Of a stretch of DNA of 25,058 nucleotides, positions 2,805 to 23,783 are shown in pieces (position 1 is the stretch's first letter; each line of letters starts with the position of its first letter). The stretch is from a virus: IMG/VR virus record IMGVR_UViG_3300032560_000885, positions 1 to 25,058 of that record. One strand, given 5' to 3'. The translations under genes and the position numbers were made by a program. A model generated the notes under the pieces. It saw only the letters and a list, made by a program, of their open reading frames with translations, ran no database searches and was not told the DNA's origin.

Positions 2805-3497
2805 ATGTCAGAAAAAAACTTAGCACAAGTATTACGTGAAAAAATGAAAGCGGATAAGAAACGCTTTTGGGCTGGTGATAACATCAGTGAATACGTAACA
2901 GAAGAAGTAAAAGCAGAACTAATCAAGGAAGCCACTGTGGCTTTTGAGCAGGTATTAGATACGCTACTAATTGATCGTGAAAACGATCCCAATAGTCAAG
3001 GTACAGCTAAACGCTTGGCCAAGATGTACTACAATGAAATTATGGCAGGTAGATATGAATCTGCACCAGATGCAACAAGTTTTCCCAACGAGGTAGATGA
3101 TGGATATAAAGGCATGTTGGTTGTACGGAGTGAATTGCGCTCTATGTGTAGTCATCATCATCAGCCAGTTGTGGGAGTGGCTTACATTGGGATTATTGCC
3201 GCCAATAGGCTTATTGGTCTTAGTAAGTATACTAGGATTGCTCAGTGGTGTGCTCGTCGCGGCACACTACAAGAAGAACTGTGCAACGACATAGCACGTG
3301 AGATCGGCTTAGCAACTGGTAGTAAAAATATTGCAGTTTATATTCAGGCCACACACGGATGTTGCGAAAATCGTGGTATTATGGCAGGTAGCTCATTGAC
3401 TCAAACTACCGTATTAACAGGTGCATTCCAAATTGACATGAATACTAAAAAAGAGTTTTTTGATAATATCAAATTACAACAAGGTTATGCACGATGA
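2805..3497 (+). CDS. folE: GTP cyclohydrolase I
   Basis: FolE hydrolyses GTP to 7,8-dihydroneopterin triphosphate, the entry step of both folate and 7-deazaguanine synthesis. The 230-residue product matches FolE through CSHHHQPVVG (C115 and H118 as zinc ligands, H117 beside them), IGLSKYTRIAQWCARR (138-152) and QATHGCCENRG (181-191) with H184 and C186 at the positions of the catalytic His and third zinc Cys. The N-terminal helix region (1-60) is present, so it looks full length. A strong promoter and an AGGA ribosome site precede it. With queD and queE downstream it probably feeds deazaguanine synthesis, although folate supply cannot be excluded. Confidence 0.95.
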   Translation: MSEKNLAQVLREKMKADKKRFWAGDNISEYVTEEVKAELIKEATVAFEQVLDTLLIDRENDPNSQGTAKRLAKMYYNEIMAGRYESAPDATSFPNEVDDGYKGMLVVRSELRSMCSHHHQPVVGVAYIGIIAANRLIGLSKYTRIAQWCARRGTLQEELCNDIAREIGLATGSKNIAVYIQATHGCCENRGIMAGSSLTQTTVLTGAFQIDMNTKKEFFDNIKLQQGYAR

Positions 3498-3757
3498 AAT
3501 GGCTAAAGAGAATTGTTGTTAAGTGGGTTAGAGATGACTGGTCTGTAGCACAGGATGTAGCTGTAGGTGCAAGATCAGTTGATGTAGAAGGACTATCCTT
3601 TAATGTTATGCCGGCACAAGGCGGAACTGTAGTGCAGATTCGTAGCTACGATCGTCGAACAGATCGTAATAATAGCATCACACATGTTATCCCCGACGGC
3701 GAAGATATTGCAACACGCATCGGACATATTGTTAGCATGGAATTATTGCGTTCATGA
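3494..3757 (+). CDS. Small protein of unknown function, first of a tandem paralogous pair
   Basis: This 87-residue protein begins with a basic, Trp-containing helix (MKWLKRIVVKWVRDDW) and ends in a beta-rich part. The segment MPAQGGTVVQIRSY, then HVIPDGEDIATRIGHIVSM, aligns with TPANGGTIVQM, then YIIPDGADFDRELGKIITM, of the next gene, so the two arose by duplication. It overlaps folE by ATGA. I do not recognise a family; the amphipathic N-terminus could bind membrane or a partner protein. Confidence 0.8.
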   Translation: MKWLKRIVVKWVRDDWSVAQDVAVGARSVDVEGLSFNVMPAQGGTVVQIRSYDRRTDRNNSITHVIPDGEDIATRIGHIVSMELLRS

Positions 3758-4083
3758 GCTTCTGGTTCAAGAACTTCCGCATCAGCATATTAAACTGGTT
3801 AGCAGCAGGTAGAATTACAATAGAGAAAGATAAAAAACCCATGTCATACACCTTAGGCGGCAGTCAAGGAACTATTAATATTAATCCAGCTGGATATGGG
3901 GTTGCACAAACGCCACAGTCCAGTCAAACAATGACTATTAAAATTACCCCAGCCAATGGTGGTACTATTGTTCAGATGAATCTGCAAGAATATAGCAATG
4001 GCGAGCTGTATATTATCCCCGATGGTGCAGACTTTGATCGTGAGTTAGGCAAAATTATTACTATGAGCAAGTTAAAAGCATGA
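3754..4083 (+). CDS. Small protein of unknown function, second of the tandem paralogous pair
   Basis: The 109-residue product has the same plan as its upstream neighbour: an aromatic amphipathic start (MSFWFKNFRISILNWLAAG), then a variable insert rich in Gly, Gln and Ser (about residues 28-62), then the shared module with GGTIVQM and IIPDGADFDRELGKIITM. Start and stop overlap neighbouring genes by ATGA at both ends, implying translational coupling. Function unknown. Confidence 0.8.
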   Translation: MSFWFKNFRISILNWLAAGRITIEKDKKPMSYTLGGSQGTININPAGYGVAQTPQSSQTMTIKITPANGGTIVQMNLQEYSNGELYIIPDGADFDRELGKIITMSKLKA

Positions 4084-4307
4084 TAGTCGAATCGTTGCAA
4101 ACTGTCGTTGGAGAAGTCAATGGATTATGGTCTTGGGTCATCGGTATTGTTGCTGGGTGGGGTTTAACATTTAGCTTAGTAGTTGCTGCATTGGTATATG
4201 CTCATGTTCGCATCGTTAGACTAAATCACAAAATATTGCAACTTGAAAATCGTATTATTACCGAAGGCAGAGATGTTAGCCTACGTTTAACCAAGGTTGA
4301 AAAATGA
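4080..4307 (+). CDS. Small single-pass membrane protein with a coiled-coil tail
   Basis: In this 75-residue product residues about 16-42 are strongly hydrophobic (WSWVIGIVAGWGLTFSLVVA) and fit one transmembrane helix; residues 45-75 have Leu/Ile/Val heptad spacing with many charged residues and fit a short coiled coil. It is coupled to its neighbours by ATGA overlaps. No family recognised. Confidence 0.75.
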   Translation: MIVESLQTVVGEVNGLWSWVIGIVAGWGLTFSLVVAALVYAHVRIVRLNHKILQLENRIITEGRDVSLRLTKVEK

Positions 4308-4660
4308 TTAATAATATCTATTCTAACACCTCAGGATATCTACATGTCAGCGGACACAACAATACTCCATACGTTTATCCTGATCCGAGTGGTAACCCAG
4401 CAACTGGTATGATTCGCATGAATGGCAATCATTGTGAAGTCTATAACGGAAGCAACTGGCTTGCGTTTGGTAGTACTGCTGAAGTTAGTTTAAGCGGTGC
4501 GGCTATTAGTGCTCTAGATTGGTGCCATAAGAAAATGGCCGAAGAAACTCGTATCAAAGAACTTGCCGCCAAGAATGTTACAGTAGCAGATGCACTTGCC
4601 AAGTACGAACTAGCACAAGCTCAACTTAAAATGGTTTTAACCTTAACTGACGCAGAGTAA
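4304..4660 (+). CDS. Phage hypothetical protein, possibly virion-associated
   Basis: The 118-residue product has an N-terminal beta-rich Gly/Asn/Ser region (residues 1-55) including the segment TGMIRMNGNHCEVYNGSNWL, which resembles receptor-facing or decoration segments of phage structural proteins where a displayed value is followed by a W. The C-terminal half (65-118) is an Ala-rich, charged helix. The structural role is inference from this pattern only. The stop TAA overlaps the next ATG by one base. Confidence 0.7.
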   Translation: MINNIYSNTSGYLHVSGHNNTPYVYPDPSGNPATGMIRMNGNHCEVYNGSNWLAFGSTAEVSLSGAAISALDWCHKKMAEETRIKELAAKNVTVADALAKYELAQAQLKMVLTLTDAE

Positions 4661-4983
4661 TGCAACAACTTCCCCCAGGATGCAAGGTAGCATACGAAAT
4701 CCGTTTTATGGTCAACGAACTCACTGACGAAATGGGCGAGTGGTTTAACATGATTGGCGGAAGTGCTACTAGAGTACGCTGGTGGGATGGCCGTGGTCGC
4801 GAACATTTTACAAATCAAGTACAATACGGTAAAGCCAAAGCCAGCTACAAAATGCAAGATGGCACAGGTTTAACCTTAGTAAGGTTTGATGGAGCAGATG
4901 CAAGCGCCGCAAGTATGTTCCTGTTAAAATTTATAGATTATATACAAACACACAACCTAAAAGAAGCAGAACATTATGTCTAG
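4660..4983 (+). CDS. Small protein of unknown function with a Phe-Leu-Leu-Lys-Phe motif
   Basis: 107 residues, compact, with VRWWDGRGREHF (59-70 region) and SAASMFLLKFIDYI near the C-terminus. The latter resembles the terminal FxLKWG motif of the small proteins at 20628-21607, but here continues for another 15 residues. It overlaps the phosphoribosyltransferase start by 8 nt. No known family recognised. Confidence 0.75.
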   Translation: MQQLPPGCKVAYEIRFMVNELTDEMGEWFNMIGGSATRVRWWDGRGREHFTNQVQYGKAKASYKMQDGTGLTLVRFDGADASAASMFLLKFIDYIQTHNLKEAEHYV

Positions 4984-5566
4984 AAAAGTATTTTACAAAG
5001 AAGCAACAATTAAGGGCTGGGTACACGAAATCATTCGTGCAATGGCCCGAGATGGATGGCGCCCCGACTATGTTGTGGGACTTACCCGCGGCGGCCTAAT
5101 TCCTGCTAATATGTTAAGTCAATATTTAGATGTACCAATGGAAACCCTTAAAGTTAGTTTCCGCGACGATAATGCTAACCCAGAGTCTAATCTATGGATG
5201 GCCGAAGAAGCATTCGGATATTTTCCAACAGAATATACAAGTGAAATAGGACCAATTGCAGTTAATAATAGTGTACTTGGCGGCGACAATTCGTTTGATT
5301 ATACTATATATGCTAAAAATATTCTTATTGTAGATGATATTAACGACACTGGTGCTACACTCAATTGGATCAAAGAAGATTGGCGTAGCGGTTGCTTACC
5401 CAATCATCCACGCTGGGAAAATGTTTTTGGTAACAATGTACGCTTTGCTGTACTAATCAACAACGAAGCAAGTGACTTTAAGGATGTAGACTATGCGGGT
5501 ATGTCCATAAACAAATTAGAAGATCCTATTTGGTGCGTATTTCCTTGGGAGGAGTGGTGGCAATAA
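4976..5566 (+). CDS. Phosphoribosyltransferase (type I PRT fold)
   Basis: This 196-residue protein has YVVGLTRGGLIPA (32-44), a PPi-loop and first strand pattern seen in xanthine/hypoxanthine-type PRTases, and the PRPP-binding loop ILIVDDINDTGAT (116-128) with the acidic pair D120/D121. The end WCVFPWEEWW is like the C-terminal Trp/Pro motif of XGPRT-type enzymes. It would join a base to PRPP to make a nucleotide. Its place between folE and queD/queE makes purine or 7-deazapurine salvage a plausible role, but this is inference from position only. There is an insert of about 40 residues (70-110) between the two motifs. Confidence 0.85.
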   Translation: MSRKVFYKEATIKGWVHEIIRAMARDGWRPDYVVGLTRGGLIPANMLSQYLDVPMETLKVSFRDDNANPESNLWMAEEAFGYFPTEYTSEIGPIAVNNSVLGGDNSFDYTIYAKNILIVDDINDTGATLNWIKEDWRSGCLPNHPRWENVFGNNVRFAVLINNEASDFKDVDYAGMSINKLEDPIWCVFPWEEWWQ

Positions 5567-5907
5567 AGAAGTTTGAACTCGATGAATCTCTCGAATGGCA
5601 CCTTGCTACTTATGAAGAATGGAATAGTTATCTAAACCAGGACGTTGTTACCGACGAAGATCTTGTTGAAGTCCTTAAAGGTAAGGGCAAGTGTAGTATG
5701 ACCGGTAGCGATGATGGGCCAGAGTTTAAGGCATTACGTGAGCAATTAGAAACCCTAGGTTATATTCGGATTCAACGTAGTTGGTGGAATGGTGATAGGG
5801 TATTAAAACCATTTATGTTAAACGGAATCACGTTTAGAAAAGATACCCAGTTTTCGTCTGGAGCCGCTATGAAAATGCATTTAGAATTTGCCAGGAAATA
5901 TAAATGA
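5557..5907 (+). CDS. Hypothetical phage protein
   Basis: The start is taken at GTG 5557, preceded by a GGAGG ribosome site at 5548-5552 and giving MAIKKFELDES; a GTG at 5554 and a TTG at 5530 are in frame but worse placed. The ~116-residue product is charged and contains WNSYLNQD, an Asp/Glu-rich stretch, IRIQRSWWNGDRVLKPF and NGITFRKD. It overlaps the phosphoribosyltransferase by 10 nt, so translation is probably coupled. No function recognised. Confidence 0.65.
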   Translation: MAIKKFELDESLEWHLATYEEWNSYLNQDVVTDEDLVEVLKGKGKCSMTGSDDGPEFKALREQLETLGYIRIQRSWWNGDRVLKPFMLNGITFRKDTQFSSGAAMKMHLEFARKYK

Positions 5908-6089
5908 TAGCCCTAACAGCCCTGATGTGTGCTTTACTTGGATACCAAGTGACAATGCCTGCGGTTGACAATGCCAAATATACCTTTACAGTTCACGAAG
6001 GGCATATTGTACGCATGAATACCCAAAATGGTACATTTGAACTATGCGATGATAAACTTAAATGCACCCAAATTGAACAAGATAAATAG
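5904..6089 (+). CDS. Small exported or membrane-anchored protein
   Basis: 61 residues. The N-terminal MIALTALMCALLGYQVTMPA is hydrophobic and signal-like, without basic residues at the start; the rest is soluble with a Cys pair, C48 and C54 (LCDDKLKC). It is coupled by ATGA to the gene before. It is the last gene before the queD promoter. Function unknown. Confidence 0.65.
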   Translation: MIALTALMCALLGYQVTMPAVDNAKYTFTVHEGHIVRMNTQNGTFELCDDKLKCTQIEQDK

Positions 6090-6129
6090 TTATATCCCCA
6101 AAAACATCGGTCTTATGGCGTCATCCCGA

Positions 6130-6158
6130 TTGATAAATTCTGCCGCCTATGCTATAAT
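6130..6158 (+). promoter_or_regulatory. sigma70-like promoter for queD
   Basis: TTGATA (6130-6135), 17-nt spacer, perfect TATAAT (6153-6158) with an upstream TGC (extended -10). An AGGAG ribosome site follows at 6165-6169, before ATG 6177. Confidence 0.8.
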
Positions 6159-6176
6159 TAACATAGGAGAATTATT

Positions 6177-6677
6177 ATGAATCAAGCAATACAATACAAG
6201 TACACCAGTACAAAAGAATATCATGACGCATTTCCGTGTGCATATCGCCAATGGAAATCCGATAGTCACTGTAACTTAATTCACGGTTATAGTTTTAGTA
6301 TGAAATTTTACTTTGGTACAGATACATTAGATACCCGCCACTGGGCTGCCGATTATGGCGGACTTAAAGAGCTTAAAGGTATTTTAGAAAGTCAATTTGA
6401 TCACACTTTATTAGTGGCAGAAGATGATCCTGAATTAGAAACATACAAACTTTTACAAGAAAAAAATCTAGCTAAACTTACTATCCTTCCTAGGCTAGGG
6501 TGTGAAGGACTAGCAGATATGTTGTACAAATATGTCAATGGTGTTTATATCCCTGACATGTGGGGTGAAGCTGAAGCAGATCGTCTATGGTGCTACAAAG
6601 TCGAAGTTAGAGAAACCCAAAGTAACATGGCGTTTCGTGAAGGACATCGTGAGTGGAATGAAGACCTGTTCGCCTAA
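6177..6677 (+). CDS. queD: 6-pyruvoyl-tetrahydropterin synthase / 6-carboxytetrahydropterin synthase family (QueD-like)
   Basis: QueD converts dihydroneopterin triphosphate, the FolE product, to 6-carboxy-tetrahydropterin. The 166-residue protein has FPCAYRQWKSDSHCNLIHGYSF (split here: FPCAYRQW at 19-26, SHCNLIHGYSF at 30-40), with C32 at the catalytic Cys and H36 at the first His of the usual LHGH. The second HGH histidine is Tyr (Y38) and the upstream AAH histidine is also Tyr (Y23); H31 may replace a zinc ligand. FDHTLLV (74-80) retains the Asp-His of the active site and VEVRET the terminal Glu. This HGY subtype is, as I recall, a distinct subgroup in phages and some bacteria. Own promoter; followed in overlap by a MazG-like gene. 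Confidence 0.85.
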   Translation: MNQAIQYKYTSTKEYHDAFPCAYRQWKSDSHCNLIHGYSFSMKFYFGTDTLDTRHWAADYGGLKELKGILESQFDHTLLVAEDDPELETYKLLQEKNLAKLTILPRLGCEGLADMLYKYVNGVYIPDMWGEAEADRLWCYKVEVRETQSNMAFREGHREWNEDLFA

Positions 6678-6939
6678 GGTAAACAAAATCCTAGACATAC
6701 TCCAAGAGGAGTGTGCGGAAGTAATTGTTGCTATCAGCAAGATTCGCCGCTTTGGCATAGACAATAGTTACAAAGATGGCGGCACTCAACGTGAGCACTT
6801 AGTACAAGAGTTGGGCGATGTTACTTTACTAATAGAATTACTTAAAGCACACCAAGTATATACAGATAAAGAATTACATGTAGCACAAGTGAAAAAAAGT
6901 CAAAAACTAACCGAATGGTCAAACATATATGAAGATTAA
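6658..6939 (+). CDS. MazG-like nucleotide pyrophosphohydrolase
   Basis: A 93-residue all-helical protein with the MazG-type metal-binding pattern LQEECAEV (E17, E18, E21) and ELGDV (E51, D54). Such enzymes hydrolyse NTPs or dNTPs to monophosphates and pyrophosphate; in phages they are thought to tune nucleotide or (p)ppGpp pools. ATG 6658 is chosen because it gives MKTCSPKVNKIL directly before the conserved helix and overlaps queD by 20 nt; upstream in-frame starts lie deep in queD. Association with queD could indicate clean-up of modified nucleotides, which is speculative. Confidence 0.8.
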   Translation: MKTCSPKVNKILDILQEECAEVIVAISKIRRFGIDNSYKDGGTQREHLVQELGDVTLLIELLKAHQVYTDKELHVAQVKKSQKLTEWSNIYED

Positions 6940-7243
6940 AAAAATGTCAAAGAAAAAAGTTGATGTTAGCTTTTTAGATCCAGTAACGTTTGAAGTGATA
7001 TGTACGTTTAATCAATGTGTAGACAAATTTACCATTGAGGGGTCGGAAGTATTAGAAAAGCAACCTAAATGGGCAGGTGGAGAGGTTATATTACACGAAA
7101 TGTTTTATCACGAATGCAACGAGTGTGGTAGGCGTGTATTTGCTAAAGGTGATAGAACTAAAGCATATCATAGCTATTTGTCCGGTGTAATGCAGAAATC
7201 TGCAAATAATAATTTAATTAATCCCGAAGACCCAACTCAATAA
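6929..7243 (+). CDS. Hypothetical protein with a CxxC motif
   Basis: 104 residues; ATG 6929 overlaps the MazG-like gene by 11 nt and a second in-frame ATG at 6944 is an alternative. FYHECNECGRRVF contains a Cys-x-x-Cys pair with a nearby His, suggesting one metal or redox site but not a full zinc ribbon. The N-terminus is lysine-rich. No family recognised. Confidence 0.65.
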   Translation: MKIKKMSKKKVDVSFLDPVTFEVICTFNQCVDKFTIEGSEVLEKQPKWAGGEVILHEMFYHECNECGRRVFAKGDRTKAYHSYLSGVMQKSANNNLINPEDPTQ

Positions 7244-7331
7244 AAATTAAATGCGTAGGGTAGAAGAACACCAAAAGAATGGCGTGGCAAAACACCAAGA
7301 GAGTTAGGATTTGATATGTTAAAGGACAATA

Positions 7332-8195
7332 ATGGCAAAGATTAAAGTAAGTGAATTGTTTTATTCACTTCAGGGAGAAGGAAGATTTGTTGGCGTGCCA
7401 TCAGTTTTTCTGCGGACGTATGGTTGCAATTTTACGTGTAGTTCATTTGGTTGCAAGCCCGGTGAAAAATCCACAGGTGCAGATGAAGTTGCTAAAGAAG
7501 TTAGCAAATATGATACTTTCTTAAGTTTACCCTTAGTTGAAACAGGTTGCGATAGTTACGCAAGTTGGCATCCTGCATTTAAACACCTAAGTCCAACATT
7601 AACTACAGAAGAACTTGTAGAACAAATGTTAGCATTAACTCCTAATAACATGTGGGCGCAGAATAACGGCAATGATGTACACCTGGTTATTACTGGCGGT
7701 GAACCATTGTTGGGTTGGCAACGTGCTTATGCTGAGTTGCTGAGTCATCCACGTATGGCAGACTTAAAGAACATTACATTTGAAACCAATGGTACCCAAG
7801 AGCTACATGAAGACTTTCGTGATTACTTAATCGATTGGGTTGATGAATTACCCGGACGTGAAGTTACCTTTAGCGTAAGTGCCAAGTTAAGTGCTAGTGG
7901 GGAAACTTGGGAAGATGCTATCAAGCCCAAGGTTGTTAATATCTATCAAACATATGGACACACATATCTTAAGTTTGTTGTGGAAACAACGGATCACGTT
8001 GACGAGGCAGTTCGGGCTGTAGATGCTTTCCGTGCAGGTGGATTTACTGGTGTTGTTTACTTGATGCCACAGGGCGGTGTTGTTGATCCATATGAATCAA
8101 ACAAACTAAACATTGCCAATATCTGTTGCGAACGTGGATTTAATTATAGCCCACGCTTGCACGTAGACTTGTGGGGCAATGGTTGGGGCAAGTGA
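7332..8195 (+). CDS. queE: 7-carboxy-7-deazaguanine synthase, radical SAM (QueE)
   Basis: QueE rearranges 6-carboxy-tetrahydropterin to 7-carboxy-7-deazaguanine with SAM and a 4Fe-4S cluster. The 287-residue protein starts with the family signature ELFYSLQGEGRFVGVPSVFLR and then GCNFTCSSFGC, with cysteines C31, C35 and C40 (CX3CX4C rather than the textbook CX3CX2C; C77-region GCDSYASW is another cluster candidate). TGGEPLL follows as the SAM-binding GGE motif, and FETNGT and VVETTDHV match later strands. Length is above the bacterial ~220 because of the insert after the cluster loop, as in other phage QueE forms. Ribosome site AAGGA lies at 7321-7325. It completes the FolE-QueD-QueE series. 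Confidence 0.88.
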   Translation: MAKIKVSELFYSLQGEGRFVGVPSVFLRTYGCNFTCSSFGCKPGEKSTGADEVAKEVSKYDTFLSLPLVETGCDSYASWHPAFKHLSPTLTTEELVEQMLALTPNNMWAQNNGNDVHLVITGGEPLLGWQRAYAELLSHPRMADLKNITFETNGTQELHEDFRDYLIDWVDELPGREVTFSVSAKLSASGETWEDAIKPKVVNIYQTYGHTYLKFVVETTDHVDEAVRAVDAFRAGGFTGVVYLMPQGGVVDPYESNKLNIANICCERGFNYSPRLHVDLWGNGWGK

Positions 8196-15466: not shown

Positions 15467-16018
15467 ATGTTAAAAGAATCCTTATCAAAGTTTACTAAAG
15501 CAGACTACGCCAAGGTCAAACGCAGCAATATCACTCATGCAGAAAGTTTGATCATTGCAGTAGATGAACTTGATCGCTTAGTAGAACGTTACAATCGTAA
15601 TGAACATACTGCACAAACTGGCCGACTACTTCGAGATAGCATGGACCATTGGATACGTCGTTATCATGGATATGTAATTGAGGGCGGTATTGGAGCCCAT
15701 TATACAGAAGTAGGAGTCGATTTAAAGAATTGTATTTTTGAACATGTTATTCCTGCAGCTAAGGTCCGCGACATGTTAATACAAGGTATATTAACAACTG
15801 CCCAGGCGCTGAATACCCCCACTTGTTTTATTAGTAAATCCAACGATCGGTTATTACGTGAACATAAGCGAGTGAGTTCAAGTCCCGATTATTGGCAATT
15901 CTTTAAACGCTACAATGTCTTTGATACTACTACAAAGTTTACAACTCACACAGGTAAAGAGATTGATATTAACAAATGGACCTTGCAAGACCATTTTAAC
16001 CTTTTTGGAATTGTATGA
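15467..16018 (+). CDS. Conserved phage protein of unknown function
   Basis: 183 residues. N-terminal helices (KADYAKVKRSN, ESLIIAVDELDRLVERYNRN), then YHGYVIEGG, then NCIFEHVIPAAKVRDMLIQG and a loop TPTCFISKSNDRLLREHKRV. The EHVIPA segment recalls the start of an HNH-type site, and H-N spacing in the loop might continue it, but the full motif is not clear. It ends by overlapping the ATPase-acetyltransferase start (ATGA). Confidence 0.7.
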   Translation: MLKESLSKFTKADYAKVKRSNITHAESLIIAVDELDRLVERYNRNEHTAQTGRLLRDSMDHWIRRYHGYVIEGGIGAHYTEVGVDLKNCIFEHVIPAAKVRDMLIQGILTTAQALNTPTCFISKSNDRLLREHKRVSSSPDYWQFFKRYNVFDTTTKFTTHTGKEIDINKWTLQDHFNLFGIV

Positions 16019-17067
16019 GCTACTTAGAAGAAATTAAAAAGAAGTACGATATCACAGATCATAAAGAAGCTAAGGTTAAAATACCCGAGCTTCCTACTAA
16101 TGGCATTGTACTCATAGTAGGTACTAGCGGCTCAGGTAAAAGCACGATCTTGAACACATTAGGCAATAGCAATCAGATTCAATTTGATCCACGTACCGCA
16201 GTTATTGAAAATTTCTCTACTGCTGAACGTGGAGAAGAACTATTGCTTGCCTGCGGCCTGCGTACTATCCCTGCTTGGTTCCGTACACCCAACACACTAA
16301 GCAATGGTGAGCATCACAGATTTGTTATGGCCCTATGCTTAGATCAAGGAATCAATACCGTTGATGAATTTACCTCCGTAGTTGACCGCGATACTGCTAA
16401 AAGTCTTGCATTAAGTATTCGCAAGTTTTATGATCGACGTGGCACAACAGATCCATTGTATATTGCCAGTTGCCATAGAGATATCATTGAATGGTTGGAT
16501 CCTGAATACGTTTATGACACAGATCTCTGTGTCTTAGAAAACCGGAGGTCACTTCTTCGACTGGGGAGACGACCAGAACTTGCACTCACCATCAAAAGCT
16601 CAAGTGTCGACTATTGGAGATATTTCAGTAAGTATCACTATTTAGATACTGCTATCAGCAAGTCAGCACACTACTATGTCTTGTTGTTAGGTGATAAACC
16701 AATTGGCTTTCATGCCGCCATACATTCAACCAACAGAGATATTCATTCGTACTGGCGCGGTCATCGTACAGTGATCCTGCCAGAGTTTCAGGGTATGGGT
16801 ATAGGTACACGATTTAGTGATGCCGTTGCTGAAATATATGTTAGTCGTGGGCTACGCTACTTTAGCAAGACTGCACACCCTAGCTTTGGCGAGCATCGCG
16901 AAAATAGTCCACTTTGGAGACCTACGTCAATGAACAAGAAAAGCCGTGTGGGTAGCTATCTAAACAAGGATGGTACTGCTAGAAAGATGGCCGGATATGG
17001 TGGTACAACTACAGTCCGTGATGCTTACCGAGTATGCTACAGCCACGAATATTTGGGCAAAAAATAG
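16015..17067 (+). CDS. ABC-type ATPase fused to a GNAT acetyltransferase domain (COG2401-like)
   Basis: 350 residues, two domains. Residues 1-180: Walker A GTSGSGKST (36-44), ABC signature-like TLSNGEHHR (94-102), Walker B ending VDEF (115-119; D117, E118) with D-loop SVVDRD, and switch H154 (IASCHRD). Residues ~190-350: GNAT fold with motif A ILPEFQGMGIGTRF (254-267), where Q259-G260-x-G262-x-G264 forms the acetyl-CoA pyrophosphate loop. COG2401 is described as an ABC-type ATPase fused to a predicted acetyltransferase; its substrate is not known. The ATPase is soluble, without transporter partners. It is coupled to the preceding gene and ends the operon before the rubrerythrin promoter. Confidence 0.85.
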   Translation: MSYLEEIKKKYDITDHKEAKVKIPELPTNGIVLIVGTSGSGKSTILNTLGNSNQIQFDPRTAVIENFSTAERGEELLLACGLRTIPAWFRTPNTLSNGEHHRFVMALCLDQGINTVDEFTSVVDRDTAKSLALSIRKFYDRRGTTDPLYIASCHRDIIEWLDPEYVYDTDLCVLENRRSLLRLGRRPELALTIKSSSVDYWRYFSKYHYLDTAISKSAHYYVLLLGDKPIGFHAAIHSTNRDIHSYWRGHRTVILPEFQGMGIGTRFSDAVAEIYVSRGLRYFSKTAHPSFGEHRENSPLWRPTSMNKKSRVGSYLNKDGTARKMAGYGGTTTVRDAYRVCYSHEYLGKK

Positions 17068-17125: not shown

Positions 17126-17575
17126 ATGTCAATTACACTAGAAAACTTAAAATCGGCCTTTGCTGGAGAGTCACAAGCATTTACAAAGTATATGTATTTT
17201 GCCAAAATCGCTCGCGCAGAAGGCCACGAAGATATTGCAAAGCATTTTGAACACACCGCTGGACAGGAACTATTACATGCACACGGTCATTTAGAATTGT
17301 TAGTAGGTAAGCCAACCACTGCTGAATGTTTGCAAATGGCTATCGCCGGCGAAACAGAAGAATACACTCACATGTACCCAACAATGCTTAAAGAAGCAGT
17401 TGAAGAAGGTAATATCGTTGCTGCACTTGAAGCACAAACACAAATTGACGAAAGCAAAGCTCACGCAAGTGAATTTACTGCTATTCTTGCCAAAGCAGAA
17501 AAACGTTTTGCAGCCTTGGCTCGAGTAGAGAAGCGTCATGCAGAAGCATATCAAACTAAATTGGAGACACTATAA
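17126..17575 (+). CDS. Rubrerythrin-type diiron protein lacking the rubredoxin domain
   Basis: This 149-residue four-helix ferritin-like protein has diiron ligands at family positions: E15 in AFAGESQAFTKY, E48 and H51 in GQELLHAH, E76/E79 in AIAGETEEY, and E135/H138 in VEKRHAEAY. Rubrerythrins reduce hydrogen peroxide and protect against oxidative stress, taking electrons from rubredoxin. The usual C-terminal rubredoxin domain is absent but is encoded by the next gene, overlapping by one base. Own promoter with possible operator; ribosome site GGAG before ATG 17126. Confidence 0.92.
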   Translation: MSITLENLKSAFAGESQAFTKYMYFAKIARAEGHEDIAKHFEHTAGQELLHAHGHLELLVGKPTTAECLQMAIAGETEEYTHMYPTMLKEAVEEGNIVAALEAQTQIDESKAHASEFTAILAKAEKRFAALARVEKRHAEAYQTKLETL

Positions 17576-17706
17576 TGGAACAGCATATTTGTATCGTATG
17601 TGGACATGTCCACGATGAAGCAGTAGAAGGCGCATGGGATTCATTGCCAGAAACATTTGAATGCCCAGAGTGTGGTTGCGGTAAAGAAGATTACACAACA
17701 ATGTAA
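17575..17706 (+). CDS. Mini-rubredoxin, electron donor partner of the rubrerythrin
   Basis: A 43-residue protein, MEQHICIVCG at the start and FECPECGCGK near the end. The two Cys-x-x-Cys-Gly knuckles (C6/C9 and C30/C33) would bind one iron, as in the rubredoxin domain that ordinary rubrerythrins carry at the C-terminus. Its ATG shares an A with the rubrerythrin TAA (TAATG), so both are made from one mRNA. A terminator follows directly, closing a two-gene operon. Confidence 0.88.
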   Translation: MEQHICIVCGHVHDEAVEGAWDSLPETFECPECGCGKEDYTTM

Positions 17707-17731: not shown

Positions 17732-17757
17732 AACCCCCTGTTTTTAGGGGGTTTTTT
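17732..17757 (+). terminator. Rho-independent terminator after the rubrerythrin operon
   Basis: Stem AACCCCCT (17732-17739) with AGGGGGTT (17746-17753), loop GTTTTT, then a T run to 17757. Confidence 0.93.
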
Positions 17758-17773
17758 GTACTTAAAATTTTGG

Positions 17774-17802
17774 TTTACCATTAATTACCAAAATGCTATA
17801 CT
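17774..17802 (+). promoter_or_regulatory. sigma70-like promoter of the 17833-18320 genes
   Basis: TTTACC (17774-17779), 17-nt spacer, TGC then TATACT (17797-17802). Downstream box GTTGTTATAGTGAA resembles that of the promoters at 19084, 22100 and 22459. Confidence 0.7.
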
Positions 17803-17832: not shown

Positions 17833-18111
17833 ATGCAAGTACAAGTAAAAGACATTATTCGTTCTTACGATTTCAAGCCAATGGTTAACAGAGAAGATTG
17901 CTTTGTTGAAGGCGAAGTATTGGATCGTAACGATAGCACTCGTGGTTACCAAGCATATAAAATCCGTGTTACTAAAGATGTGTTTGATGGCAAAGAGTTT
18001 ACTGAAGTTGGTTACAAAAATACAGGTAACCGTGTTGGTGAGATCGTGTTCGTTCCTTGGAAGGTTAGCTTTATGGAATACCAAGGTCGTATTATCAACT
18101 TGTCAAGATAA
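17833..18111 (+). CDS. Small phage protein of unknown function
   Basis: 92 residues from ATG 17833, which follows AAGGAG at 17821-17826; an in-frame GTG at 17812 lies in the promoter region. The product (DIIRSYDFKPMVNREDCFVEG, YKIRVTKDVFDGKEF, VGEIVFVPWKVSFMEYQGRI) looks like a small beta-barrel. Codons look well adapted. Role unknown. Confidence 0.8.
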   Translation: MQVQVKDIIRSYDFKPMVNREDCFVEGEVLDRNDSTRGYQAYKIRVTKDVFDGKEFTEVGYKNTGNRVGEIVFVPWKVSFMEYQGRIINLSR

Positions 18112-18122
18112 GGAGAAGCAAA

Positions 18123-18320
18123 ATGGCTTACAACAGAAAAAATCATGTGATCCAAACAGCAGATGCCATCTGCGAAGACATGGGTTACGACAACTACGCA
18201 GAATTTGAAGCCGACGACATTGAATACATTGGTATGGAATGTCAGTGCAATTTCAAAGATGTTTGTGAAATACTCAACATTCCGTTGCCTGCATCGTTGG
18301 GCCCAGTAATGGCAGGATAA
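18123..18320 (+). CDS. Small acidic phage protein
   Basis: 65 residues, acidic, preceded by AAGGAG. It contains DADAICEDM-like helices and four Cys (C17, C40, C42, C48 region), ending DVCEILNIPLPASLGP. The Cys cluster might bind a metal. No family recognised. It is followed by the structured intergenic element. Confidence 0.7.
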   Translation: MAYNRKNHVIQTADAICEDMGYDNYAEFEADDIEYIGMECQCNFKDVCEILNIPLPASLGPVMAG

Positions 18321-18435
18321 GGCTGTAATGGGGCCGTGCGGTCCCTGGGGAGCCTTGATACCCCAGAATACGAAGCGAGTCAATTTTTGCTGGTGGTTGC
18401 GACTCACAAACCTAAAACCAGCACTTTTTAACTAA
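18319..18435 (+). ncRNA. Candidate structured RNA leader / attenuator
   Basis: This GC-rich 117-nt gap has several pairing blocks: AAGGCT (18319-18324) with AGCCTT (18351-18356); GGGGCC with GGTCCC around a GTGC loop (about 18330-18345); CTGGGG (18345-18350) with CCCCAG (18361-18366); GAGTC (18377-18381) with GACTC (18401-18405); and TGCTGGTGGTT with AACC...ACCAGCA (18388-18423). Some pairs cross or compete, allowing pseudoknots or alternative folds. It ends in a terminator-like stem. No known riboswitch class recognised. The same stretch also holds a 35-codon frame from ATG 18328. Confidence 0.45.
18388..18430 (+). terminator. Terminator-like hairpin at the end of the structured gap
   Basis: TGCTGGT (18388-18394) pairs with ACCAGCA (18417-18423), GGTT with AACC inside it, followed by C and TTTTT (18425-18429). 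It lies directly before the ribosome site of the next gene, so it could be an attenuator rather than an operon end. Confidence 0.5.
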
Positions 18436-18445
18436 GGAGATGTTG

Positions 18446-18634
18446 ATGTCAAAATGTCAAACTATTGCCGAGTACAAAGAAATGGTACGCAACATGCCCG
18501 TGCAAGAATTAATGGGCTTAGCCGATACCTACAACGATTGTCAAAGCCCAGGGGTCAACGACGTTGTTATCCGCGACATTCTCAACAACGAAGTTGAGCG
18601 TCGTATTAATAACTGGGAAATCGCAGAAGTATGA
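18446..18634 (+). CDS. Small helical phage protein
   Basis: 62 residues from ATG 18446, which is 6 nt after TAAGGAG (18433-18439); ATG 18440 abuts it. Sequence features: KCQTIAEYKEMVRNM, LMGLADTYNDC, VVIRDILNNEVERRINNW, all probably helical. It overlaps the next gene by ATGA. Expression may depend on read-through of the hairpin just upstream. Function unknown. Confidence 0.75.
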   Translation: MSKCQTIAEYKEMVRNMPVQELMGLADTYNDCQSPGVNDVVIRDILNNEVERRINNWEIAEV

Positions 18635-19169: not shown

Positions 19170-20270
19170 ATGAGCGTTAGTGAAAATCGTACAGTTACCC
19201 CAAGTGAAACCCGTAGCCGTTTGTTACGTGCTTTCAAAGTAAAACGTCCAGTATTCTTGTGGGGTCCTCCAGGCGTAGGTAAATCAGAATTGGTAGCAGA
19301 CTTGACTCAAGAATTAGGCGGCCTGTGCATTGACTTGCGTCTAGGTCAGATGGAGCCGACAGATTTGCGTGGTATTCCGTTTTATAACAAAGACAACGGT
19401 AAGATGGATTGGGCTGAGCCTATCGACTTGCCAACTGCCGAAATGGCCAAAGAGTATCCAGTTATCACTTTGTTCTTGGACGAAATGAACGTAGCGGCAC
19501 CTGCTGTTCAAGCTGCAGCGTATCAGTTGATTTTGAACCGTCGTCTAGGTAAGTATCATTTGCCAGACAATGTTGTAATTGTTGCGGCTGGTAACCGTGA
19601 ATCAGATAAAGGTGTAAGTTTCCGTATGCCAATGCCTTTAGCAAATCGTTTCGTACACTTAGAAGTACGTGCAGACTACGATTCATGGAACGAGTGGGCA
19701 GTTAAGCATCGTGTACATAAAGACGTTGTAGGTTACATCGGCTTCGCTAAACAAGACTTGATGGACTTTAACCCACGTTCAAGTTCACGTGCTTTTGCTA
19801 CACCACGCTCATGGAGCTTCGTATCAGAGTTCTTGTATGATGAAGATGCTACAGATGCAGAATTGAGTGATTTGATTGCCGGTACTGTAGGCGATGGTTT
19901 GGGTGTTAAGTTTATGGCACACCGTAAGGTAGCTGGACAAATGCCTAACCCAAGCGATATTTTAGCTGGTAAAGTAAAAGAGTTGAAGGTTAAGGAAGTA
20001 TCAGCAATGTACTCATTGACTGTTAGTATGTGCTACGAATTGCAGGATAGCTATGCCAAACTAGGCAAAGAAAAGATCGGCGAATGGCATGAACAAGCAG
20101 ATAACTTCTTCAGATTTATGATGGATAATTTTACCACTGAGTTGGTTGTTATGGGAGCTCGCGTAGCTTTGACAACCTATAATCTTCCACTAGTACCAGG
20201 TAAGTTGAAGAACTTTGATGAGTTCCATAAGCGTTACGGCAAGTATATTATTGCTGCAGGCGGTAAGTAA
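19170..20270 (+). CDS. MoxR-type AAA+ ATPase
   Basis: A 366-residue AAA+ protein: Walker A WGPPGVGKSE (31-40), Walker B TLFLDEMN (100-107), sensor 1 AAGNRESDKG (139-148), and RMPMPLANRF (152-161) with candidate arginine finger. This is the MoxR/AAA_5 pattern; family members act as chaperone-like ATPases on a partner with a von Willebrand A domain. Such a partner is encoded at 22518. The C-terminal third (from about 190) is helical and specific to this group. It has its own strong promoter and an AGGAG ribosome site, implying high expression. The remodelled target is unknown. Confidence 0.9.
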   Translation: MSVSENRTVTPSETRSRLLRAFKVKRPVFLWGPPGVGKSELVADLTQELGGLCIDLRLGQMEPTDLRGIPFYNKDNGKMDWAEPIDLPTAEMAKEYPVITLFLDEMNVAAPAVQAAAYQLILNRRLGKYHLPDNVVIVAAGNRESDKGVSFRMPMPLANRFVHLEVRADYDSWNEWAVKHRVHKDVVGYIGFAKQDLMDFNPRSSSRAFATPRSWSFVSEFLYDEDATDAELSDLIAGTVGDGLGVKFMAHRKVAGQMPNPSDILAGKVKELKVKEVSAMYSLTVSMCYELQDSYAKLGKEKIGEWHEQADNFFRFMMDNFTTELVVMGARVALTTYNLPLVPGKLKNFDEFHKRYGKYIIAAGGK

Positions 20271-20301
20271 GATTCACTAGCATCATAAATGGGAGGCATT
20301 C

Positions 20302-20586
20302 GTGAGATATAAGACCTTCCTACTTTTAACGGCACTACTGCTAAACGGTTGTGCCGTTCCTATGTTTATAGCAGGTGTAGCCAGCGTAGGAGTAAATGAA
20401 TCAACAGGTCGTACTGTGTCGGATCATGTAGTAAGTGGAGCGACGGGACAGGATTGTAGAATAGCAAGATCGTTTGAAGGTCGAGATATTTGCCAAGGCA
20501 ATACAGTTGCACCTACTTTATCGGTAACAGAGTCAAAGTATCAGTCATCGTCGACAGCAGAGATTACAGCAAGGTATAACAAGTGA
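20302..20586 (+). CDS. Small lipoprotein
   Basis: 94 residues from GTG 20302 after a GGGAGG ribosome site. MRYKTFLLLTALLLNGC is a lipoprotein signal peptide with C17 as the lipidated cysteine. The mature part contains VGVNESTGRTVSDHVVSG and GQDCRIARSFEGRDICQG, with two Cys that could pair; this resembles small lipoproteins of Gram-negative bacteria. It supports a Gram-negative host. Possible role in envelope interaction or superinfection exclusion is inference. Confidence 0.8.
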   Translation: MRYKTFLLLTALLLNGCAVPMFIAGVASVGVNESTGRTVSDHVVSGATGQDCRIARSFEGRDICQGNTVAPTLSVTESKYQSSSTAEITARYNK

Positions 20587-20627
20587 AGGTAACTCGGTTA
20601 GATCGGCGCCACACTTGCTATAATATT

Positions 20628-20900
20628 ATGAAGTATCACGTAGAAACTGAGTATGATTTTATGGGCGGGAGTGAACCCAGGATAGAAAAGTTTAAAGAAT
20701 GGCGTAATTGGTGCCACGAAGTGTTTGGTCCAGGTTGCGAAACTAAGTGGATTGTAATCCGTGCAAAGCCAGCTGGCAATGAAGGTCAGTGCCGGATGGA
20801 ATCAACGACTCGTTGGGCTTGGCATACAGAAAAAGATGAAATGCGTTTATATTTTAAAGATGATGAAACGCTAAGTGCGTTTATGTTGCAGTGGGGGTAA
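20628..20900 (+). CDS. Small phage protein with C-terminal Trp-Gly motif (member 1)
   Basis: 90 residues from ATG 20628; GTG 20583, overlapping the lipoprotein stop, would add 15 residues encoded by a stretch containing TGCTATAAT and is the alternative. The C-terminus MRLYFKDDETLSAFMLQWG aligns with the ends of the next two proteins. WRNWCHEVFGPGC and a WHTEKDE turn precede it. T4-like phages carry many short proteins ending this way; role unknown. The final TGG GGG codons act as the ribosome site of the next gene. Confidence 0.75.
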   Translation: MKYHVETEYDFMGGSEPRIEKFKEWRNWCHEVFGPGCETKWIVIRAKPAGNEGQCRMESTTRWAWHTEKDEMRLYFKDDETLSAFMLQWG

Positions 20901-20901
20901 T

Positions 20902-21357
20902 ATGGAATACAAATTTATAAGAAATGATACAGATAGAATTCGTGCAATACATAACGGTAGGCCGCCTATGTTTGTACTCTTTTCTTTCCGTGACCAATGG
21001 TCAAAAGAACAGGTTAGAATTACCGAATCTAAAAATGGTTTCGAAGGATATTGGGTTAAGGTTAAAATTGATGATCCAGTAATCCAACAGGATTTTGAGG
21101 ATACTGTATTAAAAAACTCAATTAATTGGGATCAAGTTGCCAATGATCGACATAATAAAGAAAAACAACACCTATTAGATTCATATCCATTTGTAATGCA
21201 GGCAAGAAAACTATCAATAGACGAGTGTCAAGAGTTAAGTAAATGGATATGTGCAAAATTTGGTAAGGAAGGACAACGGTGGGTAACTCATCGAGAAATT
21301 GGAATATTATTTAAAAATGAAGAAGATGCAATTTTATTTGCATTAAAGTGGGGGTAA
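20902..21357 (+). CDS. Small phage protein with C-terminal Trp-Gly motif (member 2)
   Basis: 151 residues from ATG 20902, 4 nt after the G-run of the preceding gene; TTG/ATG codons upstream fall inside that gene. The last part REIGILFKNEEDAILFALKWG matches member 1. The rest (DRIRAIHNGRPPMFVLFSF, IDDPVIQQDFEDTVLKN, IDECQELSKWICAKFGKEG) is not recognised. AT-rich compared with neighbours. Confidence 0.8.
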   Translation: MEYKFIRNDTDRIRAIHNGRPPMFVLFSFRDQWSKEQVRITESKNGFEGYWVKVKIDDPVIQQDFEDTVLKNSINWDQVANDRHNKEKQHLLDSYPFVMQARKLSIDECQELSKWICAKFGKEGQRWVTHREIGILFKNEEDAILFALKWG

Positions 21358-21358
21358 T

Positions 21359-21607
21359 ATGATTTATAAAATGCCATTCCCGGTTTGGGAAAAGATTTCT
21401 GAATCATTTCCATTGATCGATAGTGGATATATAGACGAAGAAAGTATTATAAAATATCTTAAAAATGATTGCGGGCTTGTAGATACTGGTAAGTGGGAAC
21501 ATCCTGAAAAAGATGAATTTGGTGAGTGGGAAGATGGTAAAGAACTATACCATTATCGTGTTTCTAACAAGAAAAAGTTTGCATTATTTTTATTGAAGTG
21601 GGGGTAA
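21359..21607 (+). CDS. Small phage protein with C-terminal Trp-Gly motif (member 3)
   Basis: 82 residues: MPFPVWEKISESFPLIDSGY, a stretch of charged and aromatic residues, and the end KKKFALFLLKWG. Start and stop junctions repeat the arrangement of its neighbours, GGGGGTAATATG. Unknown function. Confidence 0.78.
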   Translation: MIYKMPFPVWEKISESFPLIDSGYIDEESIIKYLKNDCGLVDTGKWEHPEKDEFGEWEDGKELYHYRVSNKKKFALFLLKWG

Positions 21608-21608
21608 T

Positions 21609-22067
21609 ATGGAAGAAGCAGAATTATTATTTAAAAGGTTCCCTGCAGAAAAGCAGGATCAAGTTCGTGGTTTAGTTGAATATGCTACTCTCATGGGCTT
21701 GACAGGCAAGGACCTTGTCAGCATCGGCGGCAAACTTGATCGTATCAAAGCGCAAAAAGAACGTGCTCGTAACATGGAGATTATCAAAAGTTTTAAGATA
21801 GACACTATCGGCGACGATAAACGGTACAAAGGTATCAATCGCGAGTCCGCATTAGATAATCGCTTTAAGATTCGTACTGCTACAGGTGCGTATAACTTCC
21901 AATACAGTTACTACGGCTGGGAAGTCCAGAGCTTGAAAACTGGTGTCGGAGTACGTCATAAGATCGATATCTACGCATACGAACTAGGTGATCGTAACTG
22001 GAGCCGCCTGTGTCGCTATGCTATGATGTTAGACGTTGCACATGGTAAAATCCAGCTGAATTTCTAA
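21609..22067 (+). CDS. Hypothetical phage protein
   Basis: 152 residues. N-terminal helices (ELLFKRFPAEKQDQVRGLVEY, LTGKDLVSIGGKLDRIKAQKER) lead to a basic beta-rich half with TGAYNFQYSYYGWEV and RNWSRLCRYAMMLDVAHGK. Unlike the three genes before it, it lacks the Trp-Gly end and its codons are less AT-rich. It ends the operon: a terminator follows. Function unknown. Confidence 0.75.
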   Translation: MEEAELLFKRFPAEKQDQVRGLVEYATLMGLTGKDLVSIGGKLDRIKAQKERARNMEIIKSFKIDTIGDDKRYKGINRESALDNRFKIRTATGAYNFQYSYYGWEVQSLKTGVGVRHKIDIYAYELGDRNWSRLCRYAMMLDVAHGKIQLNF

Positions 22068-22069
22068 TT

Positions 22070-22097
22070 AGAGCCCCTGTTTATGGGGTTCTATTTT
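22070..22097 (+). terminator. Rho-independent terminator
   Basis: AGAGCCCC (22070-22077) pairs with GGGGTTCT (22085-22092, one G-U pair), loop TGTTTAT, then ATTTT. It overlaps the start of the next promoter region. Confidence 0.85.
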
Positions 22098-22099
22098 GG

Positions 22100-22128
22100 T
22101 TGCCCATTAATTCCATTAAATGTATAAT
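22100..22128 (+). promoter_or_regulatory. sigma70-like promoter for the 22159 gene
   Basis: TTGCCC (22100-22105), 17-nt spacer, TATAAT (22123-22128), downstream box GTATGTATAGTGAA, then AAGGAG before ATG 22159. Confidence 0.8.
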
Positions 22129-22158
22129 GTATGTATAGTGAAATTAAAGGAGCGTTAA

Positions 22159-22440
22159 ATGTTTGAACTTATTGGTGAAATTACAGTCGGTTTAGTTGGT
22201 GTAGTTATCCTTGCTGTCGTTGCTTATAATTTGTTTGATATCGCCCGCACCGCAGTATTGGGCACAGACTTTTTACGCTGGTATATTGCACAATCTAAAA
22301 AGACTAATCCTACTTACAAAATGAAGGTTAATATTTTTAGTGCATGGATTGAAGCGTTTAAAACCATGTATGAGTACGGTGATGAAACTTCAATTACTCA
22401 CAATAACGGTGCCAAATACAAACCATTTAGTCGAGTTTAA
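22159..22440 (+). CDS. Small membrane protein
   Basis: 93 residues: N-terminal transmembrane helix (GEITVGLVGVVILAVVAYNL, 6-25), then a soluble part with RWYIAQSKKTNPTYKMKV, FSAWIEAFKTMYEYGDE and a basic end. It stands alone between a terminator and the next promoter. Unknown role. Confidence 0.78.
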   Translation: MFELIGEITVGLVGVVILAVVAYNLFDIARTAVLGTDFLRWYIAQSKKTNPTYKMKVNIFSAWIEAFKTMYEYGDETSITHNNGAKYKPFSRV

Positions 22441-22458
22441 ACCGTTGTTTTTAGACTA

Positions 22459-22487
22459 CAGACCAACAAATCAGTTTAATGTATAAT
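22459..22487 (+). promoter_or_regulatory. sigma70-like promoter for the VWA/metallopeptidase-like gene
   Basis: Weak -35 CAGACC (22459-22464), 17-nt spacer, TATAAT (22482-22487), downstream box AGTTGTATAGTAA identical to that of the MoxR promoter, then AGGAG before ATG 22518. Confidence 0.75.
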
Positions 22488-22517
22488 AGTTGTATAGTAA
22501 AAATTTAGGAGCATTTA

Positions 22518-23783
22518 ATGACTACATTAGCAGAAAAAAGCAAAGTTAAAACAGTAACAGATCCCAAGGTAGATGCTAGTGCCCGTGAAAAATTGATCAC
22601 TGCACGTATCGGCTTGCTGTTACGTCAGCCGTTCTTTGGTAACCTTGCTACCCGCATGAACTTGATCAATGCTGACGAATGGTGTCCTACTGCCGCAACA
22701 GACGGACGTAGGTTTTATTACAACTCAGAATTCGTTAATTCGCTTCCGCTGAAGCAGTTGGAGTTCTTGGTAGGCCACGAAGTGTTACACGCTGTTTATG
22801 ACCATATGGGACGTCGTGGCAATCGCGATCCTAAGTTATGGAACATTGCCGATGACTATTGTGTAAATTGGGACTTGGTAGAACAACGTGTTGGTGACAA
22901 GATTCCTGTTGCCTTATACGATTCTAAATACAAAGGTATGTGCGCCGAAGAAGTTTACGATGACTTGTATGCCAATGCAGACAAAATCAACGTTGATCAG
23001 TTGCTCAAGCAATTACTAGATGAGCACTTGGACGGTACCGGAGAAGAAGATGGAGAAGGTGACGGTACTGAAAGCGACAAATCTGGTCAAGGCAACGGAC
23101 GTCCTAAGCTCACAGAAGCTGAAAAGAAGGAAATCCGTGACGAGATCAAAGAAGCTGTCTTAGCCGCAGCAACCAGCGTAGGTGCAGGTAATGTACCAGG
23201 CGGTGTCAAGCGCATGATCAAGGACTTGATTGAGCCTGTAATGGATTGGCGTGAACTGTTACAACAACAGATCGAATCTACAGTTAAATCAGACTTTACT
23301 TGGGCACGTCCTTCACGTCGTAGCTGGCATATGGATGCAGTTATGCCAGGCATGAAACCGGGCGAACAGATTGATGTTGTCATCGGTATTGATACTTCTG
23401 GATCAATTACAGACCAAGACCTAAAGATCTTCTTGAGTGAAATCAAAGGTATCATGGAAGCCTACGATGAGTACAAGATCACAGTAATGGGTTGGGATAC
23501 CGAAGTCGGCAATGTAGCTACATTTACATCAGACAACTTAGAAGATATCAGCAGTTTTGAACCAGGTGGTGGTGGTGGTACAGATCCACATTGTGTTTGG
23601 AACTACCTGCGTGAAAACGACATTGAACCTAAGAAACTGATCATGTTTACTGACTTTTGCTTTTACGGTTGGAGTCCTGCAGAGGTAGAACTGTACTGTG
23701 ATACTGTTTGGATTATCAAAGGTAACAAGTCAGCAGAACCAGAGTTTGGTGTTTGGGCTCACTACGAGGATGCAGACAAGTGA
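22518..23783 (+). CDS. VWA-like and putative metallopeptidase protein (DUF2201 type), MoxR partner
   Basis: 421 residues, three parts. Residues ~20-150: metallopeptidase-like domain with VGHEVLHAVYDH (85-96), the HExxH zinc motif at H87-E88-H91, and NIADDYCVN downstream. Residues ~155-205: acidic Gly/Asp/Glu linker. Residues ~285-421: VWA-like domain with MIDAS motif IGIDTSGSI (289-297; D292, S294, S296), GGGGTDP (351-357) and MFTDF (376-380). This two-domain plan is DUF2201. With the MoxR ATPase at 19170 and an identical promoter box, the two most likely form an ATPase-adaptor pair. Whether the zinc site is catalytic is unknown. Confidence 0.88.
   Translation: MTTLAEKSKVKTVTDPKVDASAREKLITARIGLLLRQPFFGNLATRMNLINADEWCPTAATDGRRFYYNSEFVNSLPLKQLEFLVGHEVLHAVYDHMGRRGNRDPKLWNIADDYCVNWDLVEQRVGDKIPVALYDSKYKGMCAEEVYDDLYANADKINVDQLLKQLLDEHLDGTGEEDGEGDGTESDKSGQGNGRPKLTEAEKKEIRDEIKEAVLAAATSVGAGNVPGGVKRMIKDLIEPVMDWRELLQQQIESTVKSDFTWARPSRRSWHMDAVMPGMKPGEQIDVVIGIDTSGSITDQDLKIFLSEIKGIMEAYDEYKITVMGWDTEVGNVATFTSDNLEDISSFEPGGGGGTDPHCVWNYLRENDIEPKKLIMFTDFCFYGWSPAEVELYCDTVWIIKGNKSAEPEFGVWAHYEDADK

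Follow-up and report, generated by a model that had tools for sequence, protein, structure and literature searches.

A structured RNA of a previously uncatalogued family, matching no family in Rfam, lies between two small genes of the lake-virus stretch analysed here (the window: positions 1 to 25,058 of the 25,058-nt virus record IMGVR_UViG_3300032560_000885, to which near-identical contigs were found in IMG/VR). It forms two tandem pseudoknots, PK1 (helices P1, P2 and P3) and PK2 (helices S1 and S2), and ends in a terminator-like hairpin with a U-tract (Table 1). We infer, tentatively and with slightly less than an even chance, that it represents a new phage noncoding RNA family, formed at the 3' terminus of a short transcript from a strong promoter, with a probable action in trans.

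Table 1. Transcription unit and elements of the structured RNA in the window.
Feature	Position	Strand	Basis or remark
sigma70-like promoter, extended -10, TTTACC-N17-TATACT, heading the transcript	17774..17802	+	9/12 positions plus TG
up92, first gene of the unit, 92 aa, no known family	17833..18111	+	homologue directly 5' of the RNA in many relatives
up65, second gene	18123..18320	+	stop TAA (18318-18320) extends into the start of the RNA
structured RNA element (PK1, linker, PK2, U-tract)	18319..18429 (gap 18318-18429)	+	28 distinct copies, covariation
P1 5' strand AAGGCU, partner 18351-18356	18319..18324	+	AGGC/GCCU core nearly invariant
P2 hairpin GGGCC-GUGC-GGUCC, within P1	18331..18344	+	both sides change at 3/5 pairs
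P3 5' strand CUGGGG, partner 18361-18366 across P1 (pseudoknot 1)	18345..18350	+	paired 26/26
P1 3' strand AGCCUU	18351..18356	+	family alignment
loop GAUA between P1 and P3	18357..18360	+	invariant in all copies; partly selected by search patterns
P3 3' strand CCCCAG	18361..18366	+	family alignment, by-stem pair counts
S1 5' strand GAGUC, partner 18401-18405 (pseudoknot 2)	18377..18381	+	covarying variants across copies
U-run loop between S1 and S2	18384..18388	+	at least 3 U in each full copy
S2 5' strand UGCUGGU, partner 18417-18423, terminator-like stem	18388..18394	+	G-C/A-U compensatory pairs
S1 3' strand GACUC, within the S2 loop	18401..18405	+	family alignment
S2 3' strand ACCAGCA	18417..18423	+	family alignment
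U-tract, one base past S2	18425..18429	+	U-rich in 24/26 copies
Shine-Dalgarno AAGGAG for the next gene	18434..18439	+	sequence
dn62, next gene, 62 aa, no known family	18446..18634	+	read-through of the hairpin required
35-codon frame of the preliminary description	18328..18435	+	rejected as a conserved peptide

Homologues were gathered with BLAST, the gap serving as query against loci fetched with neighbouring genes, with pattern scans of IMG/VR and with a covariance model. The copies found by BLAST are 80-84% identical to the gap, and their flanking genes are far more diverged or different altogether. Of the 28 distinct copies that IMG/VR contigs yielded, 26 are full length, and these counts are lower bounds on the distribution; the carriers are mostly large phages, with contigs of up to 357 kb, and a single covariance model matches the copies at E values of about 1e-16 to 1e-30. 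The RNA is single: among 49 phage records searched whole, 28 had one significant copy each and the rest had none, a second, weak match (E 0.085) occurred in one record (G005), and a model of PK2 found no second copy in the 343,632-base phage record G034. At one contig end (L165, positions 1-172, from IMGVR_UViG_3300032248_000845), an incomplete second copy lies in tandem with a 109-nt period, which may be a real duplication or an assembly effect. At the sensitivity used, no copy was detected in cultured phages, plasmids or GTDB genomes, and the cultured relatives PA5oct, BUCT-ZZ01 and Phosso gave no significant match (E 0.4-0.8); the sole GTDB match for the core falls inside a coding ABC-type gene (L132) and was discarded as a host-borne copy. 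With Rfam 15, no match in the window reached the gathering cut-off, the whole stretch giving just two unrelated sub-threshold lncRNA matches, and five other copies with their flanks had no match at E up to 1, in agreement with the preliminary description, which had recognised no known class.

That description had proposed two pseudoknots from complementary blocks in the gap. The blocks AAGGCT/AGCCTT, CTGGGG/CCCCAG, GAGTC/GACTC and TGCTGGT/ACCAGCA, and the TTTTT followed by AAGGAG, are all present, AGCCTT lies within the loop closed by CTGGGG/CCCCAG, and GACTC lies within the loop of the last hairpin. The family alignment bears the proposal out. PK1 consists of P1 (the AGGCY/RGCCU region), the hairpin P2 and P3, which joins the strand just 5' of the P1 3' strand to the strand four bases (GAUA) 3' of it, and in PK2, where S1 and S2 interleave, the loop that separates the two 5' strands is rich in U and the one preceding the last strand is rich in A. 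With the pseudoknots included, 98.2% of 616 alignment cells are paired, compared with 37-60% when the partners are slid by 1-3 columns. Two-sided changes occupy 30 cells against 8.5 in shuffles, a control that leaves relatedness in, yet the changes recur across different stems and lineages. Compensatory substitutions, whose absence from homologues had been set beforehand as a refutation, were thus found in P2, P3, S1 and S2.

By stem, P2 covaries at three of its five pairs (GGGCC/GGUCC, GGGUC/GAUCC, GGCAG/CUGCC, GGGCG/CGUCC and GGGAG/CUUCC). P3 covaries at two of six: an inner G-C becomes A-U (GGGG/CCCC to GGAG/CUCC) in L164, L165, L170, L171 and L177, and the outer pair is C-G, U-G or U-A. 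The search patterns fixed P3 and the GAUA loop in part, so that the invariance of both is partly selected; a pattern that left P3 and the loop free, and another that freed the inner P3 pairs, recovered compensated P3 variants. The core of S1 occurs as GAGUC/GACUC, AAGUC/GACUU, GAGUU/AACUU and GGUC/GACC, while S2 has G-C/A-U compensatory changes at two of six pairs. P1 hardly varies, apart from the loss of its outermost pair in 9 of 26 copies, and is therefore neither supported nor refuted by covariation; its pairing is predicted from complementarity. Because G-U pairs are used, the plus strand is favoured, with 98.7% standard pairs against 91.3% on the other strand. Folding energy was dropped as evidence, since it does not set the gap apart from shuffled sequences (z -0.58, with 59 of 200 shuffles being as stable), and the RNA is judged to be beyond chance because of its conservation across 28 copies and the pairing excess over slid partners, not because of energy. 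The richness in G and C that had first drawn attention to the gap does not characterise the family, the content being 50% in this copy and about 41% in another. A likeness seen by eye to helices 23/24 of 16S rRNA (UGGGGAGC...GAUACCC) was set down to chance, because the shared GUGCG changes in several copies.

A protein-coding explanation does not fit these data. The leader peptide suggested for the 35-codon frame is not kept, as the frame varies from 14 to 62 codons across copies, loses its ATG in L107 and is shifted in L170, and the Cys-Trp-Trp run within it is not conserved among copies. Conservation does not follow codons either, third positions being as frozen as the others and pair changes leading to radical residue changes. 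The protein-coding reading, including read-through of the upstream stop, was therefore rejected.

At the 3' end, where a terminator had been proposed, S2 with a U-rich tail gives a terminator-like arrangement in 24 of 26 copies; the tail is weak in L170 and absent in L125, where S2 is kept. However, one spacer base precedes the U-tract, the upper stem of S2 is AU-rich, and a consensus scan made no call here. The next gene starts within about 20 nt in most copies, usually about 10-20 nt past the U-tract, and a terminator here must therefore be leaky; in the window, expression of dn62 requires read-through of the hairpin, because the intervening space is too short for a promoter.

A stop codon lies at most a few bases from the start of the RNA and often contains it, and the RNA always follows the first or second gene of its operon. 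In the copies examined, a promoter near TTGACC-N17-TATAAT, matched at 10 or more of 13 positions, lies about 142-704 nt upstream, with one or two small genes between it and the RNA. No conserved promoter was found directly in front of the RNA in these loci, so that a separate small RNA would need processing. Proximity to a promoter is moderate evidence, because such promoters are frequent: the related genome G034 (L188-L205) holds 69 near-consensus TTGACC-N17-TATAAT sites, 62 of them on one strand, and the density in this part of the genome is about one per 1.7 kb. In the same record, promoters are dense around 70-95 kb, where short accessory units headed by promoters appear to cluster. In L170 and L177 the sole gene between promoter and RNA is an ORF of about 35-40 codons, probably for a small membrane protein. 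The cumulative GC skew of G034 rises almost throughout and does not turn at the RNA, and a replication origin or primer was accordingly rejected.

The genes on both sides of the RNA turn over. Six or more gene families occur upstream of it (up92, up65, the AYAGSRLD family, the L120 and L112 types, and the tiny ORFs of L170 and L177), and downstream there are at least six unrelated ones, including, in L016, L115 and L125, moxR with its own promoter region between. At the same junction, the sequence is ...TAAGGAG..ATG in close relatives that lack the RNA and TAAGG-CUG...U-tract...GGAG in those that carry it; a gene pair like up92-dn62 also occurs without the RNA. Moreover, the copy in L109 is a mosaic, its upstream flank being shared with L140 (86% over 346 nt) and its downstream flank and the 3' half of the RNA with L038 (93% over 399 nt). 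Recombination at the RNA is thereby supported, and it is probably a by-product of the conserved sequence.

Elsewhere, the window contains folE, queD-like and queE-like genes (2805-8195), which suggest that this phage group has 7-deazaguanine DNA modification or a metabolism of the queuosine type. A MoxR-type AAA ATPase gene and a DUF2201 VWA/metallopeptidase-like gene (19170-23783) stand in an order conserved in relatives, and the MoxR protein is 49% identical to its counterpart in Pseudomonas jumbo phage PA5oct. One protein (16015-17067) combines an ABC-type P-loop N-terminal part with a GNAT acetyltransferase C-terminal part (phrog_11143), and adjoining rubrerythrin and rubredoxin genes (17126-17706) are followed by a strong terminator (17732-17753).

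An element controlling one gene in cis would be expected to move together with it. The RNA, in contrast, is retained although the genes on both sides change, is found as one copy in each genome and is missing from comparable gene pairs in close relatives, all of which favours a noncoding RNA with its own function. In the proposed course of events, host RNA polymerase would presumably read the strong sigma70-like promoter early in infection and give a short transcript of one or two small genes. The RNA, starting at or a few bases from the last stop codon, folds into PK1, a P1/P3 pseudoknot with P2 inserted, and then into the H-type PK2 with its U-rich first and A-rich last loops, a fold that covariation shows for all helices but P1. 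S2 and the U-tract would halt a fraction of the polymerases and so set the 3' end, which PK2, possibly with U.A-U triples, may shield from 3' exonucleases. The product would be a stable RNA of the 3' end, either by itself or as a 3' UTR, and it would most likely act in trans, the near-invariant PK1 surface (GURAU, the P2 loop and GAUA) being presented to a protein or ribonucleoprotein. Its conserved sequence also acts as a crossover point for the exchange of flanking genes, a role supported by the mosaic copies. The constant operon position counts against this reading, since a purely trans-acting RNA would not require it.

Chief among the rivals is a cis attenuator or riboswitch, in which PK1 would sense a ligand, a protein or translation of the upstream gene, in the last case through the upstream stop codon inside P1, and S2 would be a conditional terminator for the following genes. 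Pseudoknot riboswitches with terminator platforms offer the same sequence of parts, a compact pseudoknot with invariant loop bases and then a terminator-like hairpin, and the phage RNA indeed has a conserved, aptamer-like fold (a covarying PK1 with near-invariant loops) followed by the hairpin and the ribosome site of the next gene. A leaky terminator close to the next gene is also the layout of a cis attenuator, and a ribosome terminating at the overlapping stop must open P1. The competing folds of the preliminary description exist in so far as GGCUGU (18321-18326) is complementary to GC.AGUC (18375-18381); their helix would be incompatible with P1 and S1 and belongs to the best nested fold in L126. 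However, this helix shows no covariation among the copies, its invariant pairs being uninformative, needs a bulge in 8 of 26 and has one mismatched pair in 7 of 26; a switch through it is possible but unsupported. Also against control in cis are the lack of a consistent downstream gene type, of the kind seen with riboswitches, among the six or more families (moxR with its own promoter region included), the occurrence of the up92-dn62-like pair without the RNA, the single copy and the loss of the U-tract in L125. Unlike the known pseudoknot riboswitches, the phage RNA matches no Rfam class and has a covarying second pseudoknot inside the terminator hairpin itself. The riboswitch or attenuator first suggested is thus weakened, and we consider it unlikely, at about one chance in four.

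More doubtful still is that the double pseudoknot is simply an mRNA 3' stabiliser, blocking 3' exonucleases and preserving the preceding short mRNA without a partner in trans. The RNA always abuts a stop codon, and PK2 resembles triple-helix pseudoknots in having a first loop rich in U and a last loop rich in A. Yet there is one RNA against 69 promoter-like sites, making its unit the sole carrier among dozens of promoter-headed units, the upstream gene varies, and stabilising calls for structure, not for near-invariant sequence in the PK1 loops. Bacterial small RNAs derived from 3' UTRs are likewise bounded by a stop codon and a terminator-like, U-rich end; they have an open seed, whereas the phage RNA is a rigid double pseudoknot found here in phage contigs only.

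A gene-shuffling cassette like the PeSLs of T4-type phages, in which promoter and stem-loop DNA would serve as a homology patch for accessory-gene exchange, appears improbable. PeSLs also combine a host-like early promoter and a stem-loop around exchangeable small genes, with recombination at the element, and here the mosaic copies break at the RNA, the layout is promoter, gene and hairpin, and presence or absence is clean between TAAGG and GGAG. In PeSLs as generally described, though, the stem-loop stands beside the promoter, whereas the hairpin of the phage RNA follows a gene; the early promoter joined to a stem-loop was not found, as genes intervene. Furthermore, DNA kept as a homology patch would not require two pseudoknots to undergo compensatory change, and by-stem covariation already largely shows that selection keeps the RNA fold and not DNA identity. 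According to a secondary citation, the shuffling regions of T4-type phages hold many PeSLs (PMC4503421), compared with one covarying double-pseudoknot RNA per genome here.

Least probable is a decoy of a host pseudoknot RNA, such as a mimic of a type III toxin-antitoxin RNA: phage PhiTE offers the precedent of a phage-encoded noncoding pseudoknot RNA, pseudo-ToxI, which expands in tandem and defeats ToxIN (PMC3475682), and the L165 copy may be tandem, but pseudo-ToxI consists of 36-nt repeats resembling a plasmid antitoxin and the phage RNA is a single unit of about 110 nt with no sequence relation found to it and no Rfam match, the L165 duplication could be an assembly effect, tandem repeats of about 36 nt beside a ToxN-like nuclease were not found, that nuclease being absent among the proteins scanned, and ten nearby proteins gave no convincing toxin or defence family match.

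Returning to the trans-acting noncoding RNA, its more specific form, which we hold at roughly one chance in three, would be a new class of double-pseudoknot RNAs, made from strong host-type promoters, that binds a host factor such as a ribonuclease, a ribosome-associated factor or a defence protein and diverts it, and is kept in single copy while its neighbours are swapped. Strongly covarying structured RNAs without an Rfam match are uncommon, and the function of this one is directly testable, given a defined boundary, natural presence/absence pairs at one junction and about 26 full-length variants. Phage-borne RNAs of defined fold are good leads to the host factors that phages need to control, and the present family shows that large phages can keep a noncoding RNA through replacement of the genes that flank it.
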